Positions 50,535 through 56,808 are shown, numbered from the stretch's first letter. The stretch is 64,000 nt of DNA from an uncultured Candidatus Entotheonella sp. (GCA_951828535.1 OX639990.1:917300-981299), one strand, 5' to 3'. Made by a program: numbers and translations. The notes: generated by a model from the letters alone, not told the origin.

Positions 50535-51503
50535 AAGGTGTTAGCGGGATTACCCAAAGCAGGTGCCACCGCACTTGGTCAAGGCGAGCGCGTTACAAGG
50601 CAACAGGGGTCGTTCTTAAGATGCCGCTGATTTTTGAGCATCCAACGCGCTCGTATTAAAGCGAATTCGAGATTTGTCCTGAATCTTGGTCCGCGATTTT
50701 CGATAATTCTCACCTTACTGCTCGGCAACTTCTGCCTTCGTCACATCCCCTGGCAATCAGCCACTTGAAACAGCGCCCCGTCGGAGTCCTCTAACAAGCC
50801 TCTGTCCCTAAATCAAAAAGTCGATAGCCCTGAAATAAGGTGTGTCAATGTTACGTATATTAAAGGGAATTTTGCATGATCTTCTTGAACTTGACTCATA
50901 ATTCCCGCCAACATTTTATTCTCACCACCCACCTGCAAGCCGCGCTGCCCTATAGCTTCATAACCCAGACGCCGAAGCGACACTTCAGAGCCGAGCCACT
51001 CACACTGCGAGGCAACTTCACACCATCAAAACCTCATCGTGCCGCCGGAGGTTTGAAGCGGCAGCGCACTCCGACTCCACACCGCGACGGTGGAGAAGGT
51101 CATCCATATTGATGGAGAGCAGGGTGTTCATGGGGGAACAAGGATCTTGCGCGGGTTGAGGGTTCAATCGCAAATTAAGTCTCATATCGGCATTTCAAGA
51201 AGCCAACCTCGGGGATTCAGGAGAGCTACCATGCACTTATCTGTTGCACAACCGACCTGTTATAAGCTAGGGTCACACTCGTTTCATGCCCCCTGTTGGT
51301 CCGTTTTCACGGGGTCCGAATGAAACTGCCGACATGAAATCCGTCATTGCTTCAGAGGTATCGGCAATTGGGGCAATCGAGCTTTTCGGTGTTGATGGAT
51401 GCCCTTGAGTCGTTCTTGGAAGGACGGCAGCCTGACCTCTTCTTGCTACGATAGCCCCCCACTGTTCTGATCCTCTAAATGCTTACGAGCGAATAAGTGA
51501 CCA
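50535..51503. other. About 970-bp AT-richer region without a recognisable gene
   Basis: Only short ORFs without ribosome sites or family features are seen (for example 50876-51112 and 51090-51323). No inverted repeats, tRNA or CRISPR structure was noticed. It marks the left border of the accessory island 51.5-57 kb. Confidence 0.5.
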
Positions 51504-52598
51504 ATGCGTAAACCCACGTCCAAGACAAGGCGCTGGAATCGTATTCACGCTCGTCTCTCAAATAAACGACGACTCAGGCTTAAAAGAACAGGAAGAATTC
51601 GATCAAAACAGAGGAACCGGAGAGCCTCGACGCTTGGCATTGCCAGAAAAGGAACTGTCACCATTTCGTGCCCGTCAGACTTCTCATTGGAGTCCAATTT
51701 TGATGGTGTTGTGCATGTCCTTGAACAAATCCGGGAACAAAGCACAAAACAAAGGAATGAGCGAACGTATATCGACTTCAGAGAGATCAGAAGCATTTCA
51801 CCATCGGCCGCGCTCGTGCTCGTTGCAGAGTTGGATCGATGGAACCATGAACCCCTGATGCGGAATCGAAACGCCAAGCTCCGTGCGGTTGATGTGGACG
51901 AATGGGATTCTGCTGTTCGACGCCTACTTGCAGATATGGGCTTTTTCAATTTGCTTCAAGTATCAGATCCGCAGACAAATCTGGCTTCTGACGATCCATC
52001 CTCCCGCGCGTGTTTCGTGAAATTCCGCACGGGCAATAAGGTTGACGGAAAAGCCATCGAGGAACTACGAAGAACTGATTTGGCCCCTTTCGTCGGAGTG
52101 CCCAACAAACACCAACTCTATGCGGCTGTTACGGAGGCGATGACAAATGTGGTGCATCACGCCTATCCCCGCAGCCTGCCGCCAAGACCCAACTGGTGGC
52201 TATCGGCCTCACACGATGCAAAAGACGGCGAGATTGTCATCATGATCTACGATCAGGGTGCGGGCATCCCTGAAACTCTGCCACGAAACTTTGCTGAACA
52301 ACTGCGGCGCTTGGTACCCGAAAACCTCAGTAAAGACCACGCCCGGATGATTCAAGCGGCACACGAGATACGCAGGTCAGACACGAGACAGGACCATCGA
52401 GGTCAGGGGCTTGGAAGAGATATCCGACAATACGTAGAAACCCTAAGTTGCAGTAGTCGTTATCGCGTATTAAGTCTTCAGGGTGAATACATCCTTGAGA
52501 AACCCGCAACCGGCCCAAGCACGGATTTCCTCAAAAATCACAGCCGCTCTTTGTACGGCACACTGATCGAATGGAAGCTAACGAGCGAGGTGCATTGA
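51504..52598 (+). CDS. STAS-like plus GHKL-ATPase (HATPase) protein, first gene of a three-gene operon
   Basis: 364 aa. A very basic N-terminus (about residues 1-45, Arg/Lys-rich) is followed by a STAS-like part (ERTYIDFREIRSISPSAALVLVAELDRW) and a GHKL ATPase domain: N-box YAAVTEAMTNVVHHAYP, G1 box IYDQGAGIP and G2 GQGLGRDI. The arrangement recalls anti-sigma kinases such as SpoIIAB, but fused to STAS. The stop TGA at 52596 overlaps the ATG of the DUF4325 gene (TGATG), so the two are translated together. Base composition is less GC-rich than core genes, consistent with transfer. Function unknown. Confidence 0.8.
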   Translation: MRKPTSKTRRWNRIHARLSNKRRLRLKRTGRIRSKQRNRRASTLGIARKGTVTISCPSDFSLESNFDGVVHVLEQIREQSTKQRNERTYIDFREIRSISPSAALVLVAELDRWNHEPLMRNRNAKLRAVDVDEWDSAVRRLLADMGFFNLLQVSDPQTNLASDDPSSRACFVKFRTGNKVDGKAIEELRRTDLAPFVGVPNKHQLYAAVTEAMTNVVHHAYPRSLPPRPNWWLSASHDAKDGEIVIMIYDQGAGIPETLPRNFAEQLRRLVPENLSKDHARMIQAAHEIRRSDTRQDHRGQGLGRDIRQYVETLSCSSRYRVLSLQGEYILEKPATGPSTDFLKNHSRSLYGTLIEWKLTSEVH

Positions 52599-52931
52599 TG
52601 AACAAGATTACGATCTCAATCGCCAACAATTTTTCCGCCTATCCTGCCGGCCGTTATCCTGCCGACGGGAAATATAACGGAACCACTTTCCGCAAGGAAG
52701 TGCTGATCCCGGCCTTGACGGACGAGGCGCGGGTAGAGGTTACGTTTGACGATGTGGCCGGTTTCGGGTCGTCGTTCCTGGACGAAGCATTCGGTGGGCT
52801 CATCCGCGACGAAGGAATGACCAAGGAATTTCTGGATTCCCGCCTGTTCTTGACAACAACCCCTCTCTGCCAACATGACTGAGACATCGGGACCCCTTTG
52901 AATTACTGTAGGGCGGTGGAGGTGTAACCCG

Positions 52932-53414
52932 ATGAACTCAGAGAGAGTCCCGATAACATTGAATGAGATTCCCTATTCGTCCCTGGGGGTCGAGGAGCGT
53001 AGCGACGAGGCCCCCAGGGACGGCCGCGCCGGAGCGACGCCTGACCCGGAGGTCGTGGCCAAGCCGAAACGGCGCCAGTTCACCGCGGAGTATCGGCTGC
53101 GGACCCTTGAGGAGGCCGATCGCTGCACACAGCCCGGCGAAGTGGGTCGCCTGCTTCGCCGCGAGGGGCTCTACAGCTCTCATCTGGCGACTTGGCGAAA
53201 GGCGCGACGAAAGGGCTCCTTGCGGGAGTTGGCCTCGAAGAAGCGCGGCGCGAAACCGGCCGAACGCAACCCGCTGGATGCGAAAGTGCAAATGCTCGAA
53301 GCGAAAGTGGCACGCCTGGAACACGAGTTGCACACCGCGCACACGATCCTGGACGTGCAGGGAAAAGTTGCCGGGCTGCTGGGATTGAACCTCGAACACG
53401 AAACGCGCTCCTGA
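52932..53414 (+). CDS. IS3-family transposase OrfA
   Basis: 160 aa. A helix-turn-helix of the IS3 OrfA type (RRQFTAEYRLRTLEEADRC, GLYSSHLATWRKARRKG) and a C-terminal leucine-zipper-like helix (VQMLEAKVARLEHELHTAH). Its stop TGA shares bases with the ATG of OrfB (53412-53416, TGATG), so OrfB is translated by re-initiation rather than by frameshifting. Confidence 0.9.
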   Translation: MNSERVPITLNEIPYSSLGVEERSDEAPRDGRAGATPDPEVVAKPKRRQFTAEYRLRTLEEADRCTQPGEVGRLLRREGLYSSHLATWRKARRKGSLRELASKKRGAKPAERNPLDAKVQMLEAKVARLEHELHTAHTILDVQGKVAGLLGLNLEHETRS

Positions 53415-54415
53415 TGGCGGCCCAATCGCTGGCAGAGCAGGTCGGCATCGTGCCGGCGTGCCGGGCGCTGGGCGTGTCGCGGGCGACTTTCTACCGTCGT
53501 CAGAGGTCAACTCCCGGGCACCAGCAGCCCCGTTCAACGCCCGCCCGGGCACTGTGTGACGCCGAGCGCGAGCAGGTCCTCGATATGCTCGCCTGTCCAC
53601 GCTTCGTTGATCGTGCGCCGGCGGAGGTGGTGGCAACACTGCTCGACGAAGGCTACTACCTGTGCTCGGAGCGCACCATGTATCGGATCCTGGCCACCAA
53701 CCAGCCGGTCCGCGAGAGACGCGATCAGCGTGTGCACCCCCAGTACGCCAAACCCGAACTGGTGGCCACGGCCCCGAACCAGACCTGGTCCTGGGATATA
53801 ACCAGACTGCTGGGGCCGACCAAGTGGACGTACTTCTACCTCTACGTGATGCTCGACATCTTCAGCCGCTACGCGGTCGGCTGGATGGTCGCCGACCGGG
53901 AGAACTCGGCGCTGGCTGCCAGTCTCATCGAAGAGACCTGCCACAAACAAGGTGTCCGGCCCCAGGTCCTCACCTTGCACTCCGACCGCGGGGCGCCGAT
54001 GACGAGCAAGTGCACCGCGCAACTGCTCGCCGACCTCGGGGTCACGCGCTCGCTGAGCCGCCCCCAGGTCTCCGATGACAACCCGTTTTCCGAGGCGCAG
54101 TTCAAGACCCTGAAGTACCACCCAGGCTTCCCCGGGCGGTTCCACAACATCACCGCCGCCATCGCCTTCTGTCGAACGTTCTTCCCTTGGTACAACACCG
54201 AGCATCGACATGGCGGCATTGCCATGCTCACCCCGGACGATGTCCATCACCATCGAACCGAGAGCGTGCTGCGCAGGCGCGGGCGGACCCTTCAAACCGC
54301 CTGGGCCCGTCATCCCGAGCGCTTCGTTCGAGGCATCCCAAAGCCAGACCCCCTACCCGAATCGGTCTGGATCAATCCACCCGTGACATCCACAACAGGA
54401 GAAACTACTCAGTAA
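53414..54415 (+). CDS. IS3-family transposase OrfB (DDE integrase)
   Basis: 333 aa. HTH_21-like N-terminus (VPACRALGVSRATFYRRQ), then the rve integrase core: Asp in SWDITRLLGPTKWTYFYLYV, Asp in LHSDRGAPMTSK and Glu in PFSEAQFKTLKYHPGFP. The C-terminus has YNTEHRHGGI and the tail typical of this IS3 lineage. DDE residues are intact. Confidence 0.92.
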   Translation: MAAQSLAEQVGIVPACRALGVSRATFYRRQRSTPGHQQPRSTPARALCDAEREQVLDMLACPRFVDRAPAEVVATLLDEGYYLCSERTMYRILATNQPVRERRDQRVHPQYAKPELVATAPNQTWSWDITRLLGPTKWTYFYLYVMLDIFSRYAVGWMVADRENSALAASLIEETCHKQGVRPQVLTLHSDRGAPMTSKCTAQLLADLGVTRSLSRPQVSDDNPFSEAQFKTLKYHPGFPGRFHNITAAIAFCRTFFPWYNTEHRHGGIAMLTPDDVHHHRTESVLRRRGRTLQTAWARHPERFVRGIPKPDPLPESVWINPPVTSTTGETTQ

Positions 54416-54711
54416 ATCGCAGTCGTCAGTGTCTCAAAGTCGTTGACAGGTTCCGCAACCGAACCCGAACTTGAGGACTTCGTGAAACTGGCTCGCCGCT
54501 ACATTGATGAGGCATCGAGTAACAAATGATTCCCGTTCCCATCGTCGCGTCGGTCATCGGAGCAATCGTTGGCGGTCTAGTGGGGTGGATCGGGAATTAC
54601 CAGTTCCAATACCGGATGTATCGACGTCTCCGTAGCGTCGATGAACTGAGAGACAGACTCTACGCTTTATTGGGAGCCGTCTTGACCCTGCCCCCTGATT
54701 CCCGCCACCGG

Positions 54712-55590
54712 TCAGTAGAGTCTGTTCATGGTTGCTGCTTCTTTCGACATTGCGATCCGAGCCTTCTCGCCAGTGCCCTGATACAGTTCAGCCAAGGCAG
54801 GTCGAGGCACGCGCCTGAGATCGGCGTAGATGCTTGGCGACAGGCCGCCTAACGAGCTGTGCGGCCGAAGAGTGTTGTAGTCCCGCCTCCAGTCTTCAAT
54901 CAGATGGCGCGCCTCAGACAACGTGCTGAACAGATGCTCGTTCAGGCATTCGTCCCGAAACCGGCCGTTGAAGCTCTCCACAAAAGCATTCTGGGTCGGC
55001 TTGCCGGGCGCAATGTAATGCCAGTCGATCCGGGTGTCCTTCGACCACTTGAGAACAGCGTGACTGGTCAACTCGGTACCGTTGTCCGAGACAATCAGGA
55101 CAGGCCTGCCACGCACCGAGACAAGTCGGTCCAACTCTCGTACCACTCGAACGCCTGATAGCGAGAAGTCCGCCACGATGGCCAGCGCTTCGCGCGAGAA
55201 GTCATCGACGATGCACAAGGCTCGGAACTTTCGCCCTTCGGCAAGGCTGTCAGAGACGAAATCCAGGCTCCAGCGTTCATTGGGGCGACTCGGTACGATT
55301 GTGGGCCTGCGCGTCCCCAAAGCCCGCTTGCGGCCCCGCCGGCGCCGCACCGCCAGATCCTCTTCACGGTAAAGGCGAAAGAGCTTCTTGTGATTAACCA
55401 CGAAGCCCTCGCGTTGTAACAGGATGCGCAGGCGCCGGTAGCCGAAGCGGCGGCGTTCGCCGGCCATCGCCTTGAGCCGCTCCCTCAGGACTGCGTCCGT
55501 ACCCGTCTTCTTGTAATACTGGAACGTGGAGCGATCCAGCCCAACCAGTTGACACGCCCGCCGCTCGCTCAAGCCGTGTACAGTCATCAC
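54712..55590 (-). CDS. IS3-family (IS407 group) transposase OrfB
   Basis: 292 aa from the in-frame ATG, but normally made as an OrfAB fusion. It carries the HTH_21 ([20 protein letters not shown]) and the rve core: [41 protein letters not shown] and [24 protein letters not shown], giving the complete D, D, E set. The C-terminus has [15 protein letters not shown]. Confidence 0.93.
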
Positions 55591-55622
55591 CTGCCGAACG
55601 GCTACCCGCTTGGCGTCGGGCG

Positions 55623-55886
55623 TCAGAAGTTTTTTGTCGTGAGATCCCTCAGAGCGGCATTGTCGAGCATGGCATCGGCCAGAAGGCGCTTGAGCCTGGC
55701 GTTTTCCGCCTCCAGGGCGCGCAGCCTCCTCGCATCGGAGACGCTCATGCCCCCGTACTTGGCCTTGTACTTGTAGAAGGTGGCGTCGCTGATGCCGTAT
55801 TTGCGGCAGACCTCGGAAGTCTTCAGCCCCGCCTCCTGCTCCCGGATCATACCGATGATCTGCTGGTCCGTTAATCTGCGCTTCAT
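55623..55886 (-). CDS. IS3-family (IS407 group) transposase OrfA
   Basis: 87 aa starting [20 protein letters not shown], with [25 protein letters not shown] (HTH) and the leucine-zipper [24 protein letters not shown] canonical slippery heptamer A-AAA-AAC lies at its end (complement of about 55628-55635), where -1 frameshifting leads into OrfB (CTT CTG ACG). Confidence 0.93.
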
Positions 55887-56329
55887 AGAGCCCATCCTCC
55901 CTACAATGGACTCTACATCCCCGTGGCCCGGATTCAAGGGGCTAGGTCAGTCTCCAGGTATTGGATCGCGGGTGGGGCAACAGAACACGAGCGCAGGAGT
56001 CTGGAAGCAGAACTCATAGCCGCCCAGCTTGTTGTTATATCGGAGTTCGTCGTTCTCGGACGAGTGAATAAGAGAATGAAACGTGCGCGGCACGACATGG
56101 CCGACTTACGATTGGACTTATTGGATGCTGCCACCGGCGGGGATTTTCAACAAGCTGACTGGAAGCCAGACCCGCAACGGGTCGTACGGATGGCCCGCAT
56201 TGTGACGCGCATAGTCCGCATACTGGCTTAACGAGTGCCGCGACCGCATTGGCCGGGCCGTGCTGGAGAAGTTCAACGAGAGGGCAGTGTTGGCCCAGCG
56301 GTCGTAGCGGGTTGAACGGTTGGTTGATT

Positions 56330-56480
56330 TTTGCCTAGCCTTGAGTTGATCAAGCATCCGATCGGAGACCTTCATGTCATCACCGGAATGGATGCTCTCA
56401 CCGCATTCGTCGTAATACCAGCTGGGTATCTCGAACGTTACCGACTGATCCTTGTAGGAGATCGTCATCGGCGCGACACC
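56330..56480 (-). pseudogene. Fragment of an MqsA/YgiT-type zinc-finger antitoxin
   Basis: The minus strand encodes MTISYKDQSVTFEIPSWYYDECGESIHSGDDMKVSDRMLDQLKARQK when read in pieces, which is the N-terminal zinc-domain tail and linker of MqsA-like antitoxins. The preceding CxxC half and the HTH domain are missing and the first Cys of the second pair is Tyr (WYYDEC). No MqsR toxin is adjacent. It is a relic. Confidence 0.6.
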
Positions 56481-56559
56481 GCGCTTCAGCGGTGTACCGG
56501 TTTCCGGGCGAATCGGATCCGTCCTTCTTTCCCCTGAAGGGCAGGATCAGAAGCCCGGT

Positions 56560-56808
56560 CACAGCATCGGCGGCATGCTTGTAACGCGCCTTGGCTTCGA
56601 CCACGGCGATGGGTAAATCGGGCCGGTAGCGCAACAGATAGTCGGCACGTTTCTGCCGGCGCCGCCGGGCCGTGCCGCCGCCGAAGAAGACGCGCCCGTC
56701 GGTAAAGGTGCGCTGCGCGTTGATGGCGTGCGGGGGGTATCCCCAGCCGGCGGCGTGGAGTTTGGGGACGACGAACCTGCGGCAGGTATCGGCTTCGTTC
56801 AGTGGCAC
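56560..56808 (-). pseudogene. N-terminal fragment of a type I restriction subunit (HsdR-like)
   Basis: The frame starting at 56808 reads MPLNEADTCRRFVVPKLHAAGW, then QRTFTDGRVFFGGG and KRADYLLRYRPDLPIAVVEAKARYKHAADAV, the N-terminal nuclease domain of HsdR-type proteins with the VxEAK core. After about 85 residues similarity ends (TGLLILPFRG...), so about nine tenths of the gene are gone. No hsdM or hsdS nearby. Confidence 0.6.

Follow-up and report, generated by a model that had tools for sequence, protein, structure and literature searches.

The toxin-antitoxin operon vapKSC, described together with CapK/CapS (Chambers et al., EMBO J, June 2026; PMC13373217), is a DNA-damage-triggered switch. 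It encodes a STAS-GHKL kinase, an antitoxin of the STAS type that bears a key serine or threonine, and an RNA-cutting PIN toxin, and gives ~2-log protection against phage Bas42. CapK and CapS are likewise a STAS-GHKL kinase followed by a STAS protein, and they adjoin immune genes (PMC13373217). We analysed a 64,000-nucleotide stretch of an uncultured Candidatus Entotheonella sp. genome (GCA_951828535.1 OX639990.1:917300-981299), hereafter the window. It holds three consecutive genes, encoding a STAS-GHKL protein (gene 1), a DUF4325 STAS-like protein (gene 2) and a single-span membrane protein (gene 3). Profile comparisons show homology between genes 1 and 2 and the kinase and STAS genes that open VapKSC-type operons. 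Where VapKSC has its PIN toxin, the locus has a conserved protein with a single transmembrane (TM) helix.

Comparison of the locus with VapKSC and other kinase switches

The three genes and the two insertion sequences (IS) that interrupt them are arranged as follows.

51504..52598, plus strand: gene 1, a STAS-GHKL kinase-like protein of 364 aa, intact (from the open reading frame (ORF), domain searches and a predicted model)
52598..52860, plus strand: 5' part of gene 2, a DUF4325 STAS-like protein with the Ser58-Ser59 motif (52769-52774)
52861..54455, plus strand: IS A, 1595 bp, an HTH_Tnp_1-like ORF and an rve transposase, within gene 2
54460..54529, plus strand: 3' part of gene 2, the C-terminal helix segment EPELEDFVKLARRYIDEASSNK, which aligns to the C-termini of intact homologues
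54526..54682, plus strand: 5' part of gene 3, the N-terminal TM helix and a basic juxtamembrane segment
54683..55949, minus strand: IS B, IS3-type, two minus-strand transposase ORFs, within gene 3
55954..56231, plus strand: 3' part of gene 3, a cytoplasmic helical domain with a conserved TGGxFQ motif

Genes 1 and 2 overlap in TGATG (52596-52600, gene 2 starting at 52598), and genes 2 and 3 overlap in ATGA at 54526. The ends of both IS elements were fixed by reference to their further copies in this 3.62-Mb genome. IS A is bounded by the target duplication CAAC (52857-52860/54456-54459) and has 10 further near-full copies that are ~100% identical. IS B is bounded by GTCT (54679-54682/55950-55953); besides divergent copies, ~9 more full-length ones share 99-100% identity with it. 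When IS A is removed the gene 2 flanks join into an open 110-aa frame, and removal of IS B restores a gene 3 of 144 aa. The coordinates, overlaps, duplications and rejoined frames confirm the layout of the original prediction, in which three overlapping genes had been hit by two IS insertions. The module in the window is non-functional, since genes 2 and 3 are both broken.

Gene 1 consists of a basic N-terminal helix, a STAS domain (~52-151) and a GHKL domain (~168-362), and the same three parts are present in its predicted model (predicted local distance difference test score (pLDDT) 86, predicted template modelling score 0.81). The Pfam GHKL match of gene 1 alone falls under the cut-off (E 4e-5). 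The kinase boxes are invariant in 42 sequences (N-box E211/N215, G1 D250xG252, G2 G300xG302). Structure comparison of the GHKL domain using VIA-align revealed SpoIIAB (Z 13.2), RsbW (Z 10.6) and UsfX as its nearest neighbours (Z range 13.2 to 9.9). These three, all of them STAS-phosphorylating kinases, outrank every other GHKL protein, which bears out the GHKL label first given to gene 1.

The same neighbours bring up classical sigma-factor partner switching of the SpoIIAB/RsbW type, with the membrane protein as signal input. Like SpoIIAB/SpoIIAA and RsbW/RsbV, the locus pairs a GHKL serine kinase fold with a STAS-like partner, gene 2. Unlike them, gene 1 has its own STAS domain, the third gene encodes a membrane protein, and no sigma-factor gene was seen adjoining the triads examined in annotated loci. 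In addition, PIN toxins stand in the place of the membrane protein in the sister family. We consider this explanation most improbable, and it was rejected as the main reading because no sigma factor lies beside the examined triads. The link to partner switching drawn by the original prediction thus holds for the kinship of gene 1 with the serine kinases SpoIIAB and RsbW, but not for sigma-factor regulation.

The read-through protein of gene 2 matches Pfam DUF4325 (PF14213) at E 3.7e-13, with 49.4 bits against a curated cut-off of 23. Members of its family have ~110 aa, comprising a STAS domain and a short C-terminal helix. A GSSF motif is almost invariant, the second serine being present in 79/80 members checked and the first in 70/77 (a row labelled Thr in this count is a mis-parse of locus L004). 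The top PDB match of the DUF4325 profile was the solved VapS (9z7o), a weak match (E 0.25) in which the presumed VapS Ser48, inferred from chain numbering, aligns with the first serine of GSSF.

Kinship with VapKSC was assessed through a DUF4325 search of 386 genomes across the domain, in place of the published VapKSC sequences. Forty genomes were positive. Six operons carried a PIN-like motif in the third gene (L095, L096, L103, L105, L110 and L118), with Pfam PIN found for L096, L103 and L105 only, L096 slightly under the cut-off. Besides the window, one membrane-type third gene was found (L119). Because PIN third genes follow DUF4325 genes in this sample, which was chosen independently of the system, VapS-like proteins share the Pfam family of gene 2. 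A sample of 398 Pseudomonadota genomes yielded eight membrane-type triads (one being the L004 seed), three PIN-type triads and one further homologous triad, L145, that has no clear TM helix.

Alignment of the gene 1 family with the kinases of the PIN-type operons using hhalign gave a probability of 99.6 (E 4.4e-24, 256 columns), and the DUF4325 proteins of the two types aligned at a probability of 96.3 (E 1.9e-9). These are the comparisons that show homology of genes 1 and 2 with the VapKSC-type pair. In a 58-row kinase tree the membrane-type and PIN-type kinases each fell on one side of a branch, with support of 52 and 89 by a quick method, and none of 500 shuffles of effector type was as low. 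The window groups with L002-L004 at a support of 100. A VapS-type query found no viral relatives.

Like VapKSC, the locus is a three-gene operon that begins with a STAS-GHKL kinase without a helix-turn-helix (HTH) and continues with a small STAS protein bearing a conserved Ser/Thr and a C-terminal helix. Unlike VapKSC, its third gene encodes a single-span membrane protein, with no Pfam or convincing PADLOC match, in place of a PIN nuclease. The kinase of the longer membrane-type members has an extra basic N-terminal helix, and the invariant serine of the membrane-type family is displaced by a single position. The locus has its switch in common with VapKSC but not the defining PIN toxin, which is replaced, and the name VapKSC should not apply.

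The likeness to CapK and CapS lies in the kinase and the STAS protein that follows it, and these are the closest studied relatives besides VapKSC. A CapKS-like transcriptional control, in which the DUF4325 protein would repress its own operon, could be proposed on this ground. In contrast to CapK and CapS, the triad kinase has one basic helix and no HTH, and the triad STAS protein, at ~110 aa, has no winged helix. The triad is also self-contained, while CapK/CapS lies upstream of a separate immune operon. We regard such control as quite improbable.

The DUF4325 searches also returned other arrangements. A second large class (L097, L112, L129 and L130) appears to consist of ~340-aa proteins with an HTH-like N-terminus and a middle region fused to a C-terminal DUF4325 domain. 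Five loci (L101, L123, L126, L141 and L143) hold a GHKL and DUF4325 pair that no recognisable third gene accompanies within the stretch covered, and such pairs possibly serve other outputs.

Recurrence and carriage of the three-gene order

The same three genes occur in the same order in hundreds of genomes, mostly overlapping or abutting; as the pattern used for scanning, E[AV]FGGL[IV]R, is biased towards this subfamily, the counts describe the subfamily, not all DUF4325 proteins. A contig scan with gene 1 found three relatives at 47-53% identity over the best segment, in a Nitrospira metagenome-assembled genome (MAG) and in two alphaproteobacterial MAGs, one named Rhodospirillaceae and the other Aestuariivita. 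All three have a DUF4325 gene and a single-TM protein gene directly downstream, with overlaps. Plasmids of Acinetobacter, Vibrio and Novosphingobium, as well as Marinobacter phage AS1 and a Helicobacter prophage, hold more distant copies, at 20-30% identity, in which the order is kept. Among complete E. coli genomes, the triad query matched 136/5426, at one place each, and the gene 3 query alone matched 135. WP_032083256/WP_032083255/WP_032083254 is one intact E. coli triad. The viral contigs were scanned with the DUF4325 alignment only, and 80 of 164 relatives were kept. Gene 1 lies directly upstream of DUF4325 in 77 of these 80, and two of the remaining three are cut by the contig start. The original prediction took the three genes as one system, and this recurring adjacency, in which gene 3 keeps its place, clearly upholds it. 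In one Acinetobacter plasmid (L009 2104-4477) an IS3-family element, ISAba14, splits gene 1 of the triad too.

The triad is carried on prophages, plasmids and bacterial islands. In E. coli prophages it is placed between the integrase and the prophage end. The neighbour of the triad in viral contigs was taken, as a rough choice, to be the longest ORF within 2 kb. Upstream it was an S24/CI-like repressor in at least 10/52 cases; downstream it was an integrase in ~10/46 and an SOS response-associated peptidase (SRAP) in 5/46 (L012 among the viral loci). In Francisella phage KIRK the three genes, Fhv_0046-0048, adjoin the CI repressor and are all listed as hypothetical (PMC7924643). The order there, a hypothetical protein like one of Marinobacter phage AS1, a DUF4325 protein and a TM protein, is that of the triad, and gene 1 matches phrog_3364 at E 5e-44. 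In contrast to the system proposed here, phrog_3364/phrog_5816 and Fhv_0046-0048 are recorded as proteins of unknown function and not as one system (PMC7924643).

This setting bears on the main rival explanation, that the triad is a regulatory or exclusion module of prophages and plasmids. On this view DNA damage would be sensed by the kinase-STAS pair, and the membrane protein would be a non-lethal superinfection-exclusion protein or anchor. Small single-TM proteins are often exclusion proteins. The position between repressor and integrase is typical of exclusion and defence genes alike, and the SRAP genes downstream in some viral loci are linked to DNA damage. On the other side, the module is also found on plasmids and in non-prophage islands, as in L003, where it lies between hpnC-like and hpnD-like genes, and the homologous operon has a toxin as its third gene. 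We consider such a non-lethal exclusion or regulatory role unlikely. In a separate locus, L004 (2575-5787), ORF reading downstream of the triad revealed a protein with two TM segments, one TIR-like protein and a pair of trypsin-like proteins, an array reminiscent of another defence cluster.

Gene 3 and the proposed switch

In the predicted model of gene 3 (L002 copy, pLDDT 91) a single long helix, with the TM segment at its start, is followed by a helical bundle. Conservation is centred on a GW/basic juxtamembrane segment, a YW motif and TGGxF(E/Q). Foldseek searches against PDB and BFVD returned only generic helical bundles, all at E > 0.001. Among the members, none of the Pfam or PADLOC families recurred convincingly. 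The PIN family was absent from 30 gene 3 members, save for one chance-level match (E 0.03). Weak, scattered matches to SLATT, ATP-synt_I, LapA, Saf_2TM, LeoBC and others were at chance level and were not used. The phage HP1 int-C1 protein P51700, from the Foldseek list, was also set aside; the first 6 kb of HP1 gave no profile match to gene 1, 2 or 3.

Single gene 3 queries of viral contigs found only near copies, and those of plasmids and phages gave no match. Gene 3 was therefore judged by position and by a hidden Markov model (HMM) based on seven homologues (L002-L004, L006 and L008-L010) together with the read-through protein of the window. The HMM matched 65 of the 80 third genes and zero other ORFs in the viral loci. 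The third ORF was N-terminally hydrophobic in 78/80 viral loci, compared to 403/1076 background ORFs of similar size, a background that includes the third genes themselves.

Collectively, these comparisons suggest, as the best reading, that the triad is a module of the toxin-antitoxin or abortive-infection kind whose effector is the membrane protein. By analogy with VapKSC, we hold it rather likely that the module is switched by phosphorylation, the kinase phosphorylating the DUF4325 antitoxin and so releasing the effector. At rest, the DUF4325 protein would hold the membrane protein inactive by binding its cytoplasmic helical domain. The gene 1 kinase would sense a trigger, probably single-stranded DNA (ssDNA) from DNA damage or phage replication, and would then phosphorylate one of the two GSSF serines, which are Ser58 and Ser59 of the window protein. 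The phosphorylated DUF4325 protein would release the membrane protein, which may harm or depolarise the inner membrane and stop the infected cell. We infer the phosphorylation, the trigger, the binding of gene 2 to gene 3, the toxicity of gene 3 and an anti-phage effect from VapKSC. Membrane action of gene 3 is the least certain step because the protein has no known effector fold.

Several observations weigh against this switch. Gene 3 is without a recognised effector domain and could be an anchor or sensor instead of a killer. The ssDNA-binding aromatic residue of CapK/VapK (VapK F54) was not placed in gene 1. The first 60 residues of long gene 1 members have a median net charge of +13, but short members, those of E. 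coli included, have no basic N-terminal tail. Finally, the phosphosite column of VapS holds the first Ser/Thr, followed by A, P or S, whereas here the second serine is invariant, so that the exact phosphosite of gene 2 is uncertain by one residue.

We put at about even the chances that the triad is an unrecognised abortive-infection family of phages and plasmids, in which a DNA-damage-activated serine kinase would free a new single-span membrane effector from a DUF4325 antitoxin. In the sampled Pseudomonadota such a family would be at least as frequent as VapKSC, and it would be present in E. coli prophages. In the literature searched on DUF4325, STAS-like and GHKL proteins with phage, the membrane-type triad was undescribed; preprints and most subscription journals lay outside this search, and a prior description is possible. 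With the triad recognised, hundreds of gene triples annotated as hypothetical, STAS-like and hypothetical, including those of 136 E. coli genomes, become one testable system. The comparison with VapKSC suggests that one kinase-STAS switch is coupled to at least two unrelated kinds of effector, the PIN RNase of VapKSC and the membrane protein of the triad. If the proposal is true, a membrane effector joins the outputs known for kinase switches that sense DNA damage, and DUF4325, which Pfam lists without a function, gains a likely role as a phosphorylated antitoxin.

The broken island in the window and in a sister species

Two further remnants lie downstream of the triad in the window.

56121..56468, minus strand: an ORF with an MqsA-family remnant, the match being its first 48 residues (TIGR03830, partial; no Pfam match)
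56401..56808, minus strand: an N-terminal remnant of HsdR, the type I restriction R subunit, with the full gene at the same site in a sister genome

The MqsA and HsdR-like remnants claimed by the original prediction were recovered in profile searches, the former with a partial TIGR03830 match at E 1.4e-5 and the latter as an EcoAI-type HsdR at E 2.9e-21 (residues 1-79 of 768). The window keeps only pieces of both genes. The non-IS DNA of the locus has a G+C content of ~50-54%, compared to 63-67% in most flanks, and is probably foreign for this reason.

Gene 1 was absent from three near relatives. In a genome of the same genus, G001, the same flanking genes (89-91% identity) surround a different insert of 9.4 kb. 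By ORF reading, this insert encodes HsdS, HsdM and HsdR, which make up a type I restriction system that is intact; an AlbA_2-like gene and remnants of MqsA and of the triad are also present. What is left of the triad is the C-terminal end of DUF4325 and, joined to it by the same ATGA overlap, the initial 52 residues of gene 3 (75% protein identity, E 2.6e-27). Because the G001 insert pairs a type I system with a triad remnant, and the window has HsdR and MqsA pieces, sequence comparison indicates that the triad was once part of a restriction/defence island that is broken in both species. The defence setting suggested earlier for the locus is likewise supported by the homology to an anti-phage system (PMC13373217), by carriage on prophages and plasmids and by the intact type I restriction-modification system of the sister.

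Two independent insertions had been taken as a sign that the system was costly or selected against. The genome contains at least 46 rve-type IS copies, 14 of the 45 neighbouring gaps between them are < 3 kb, and random placement put some IS pair within 223 nt in 12% of trials. Since IS pairs are common in this genome, the double hit alone is no evidence of selection, and it was rejected as proof. The triad is also broken in the sister species, which neutral decay would explain equally, and the claim of selection against the triad is left weak.

Further features of the site were noted in the sister genome. The interval between the short-chain dehydrogenase/reductase and enoyl-CoA hydratase genes (L161 1-10501; G001:C1:779000-789500) is an island site and holds different versions, each with parts of a type I restriction-modification system, in the two congeneric species. 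Similarity of the sister gene 3 (L161 3453-3608, compared with window 54674-54683) stops 8 nt short of the point at which IS B is inserted in the window; this endpoint may reflect either an ancestral IS-mediated deletion or chance. Positions 51065-51135 of the window match L161 890-2863 over 71 nt at 83%, which suggests that they are a remnant of an AlbA_2/Schlafen-like gene, of which the sister genome has an intact copy.

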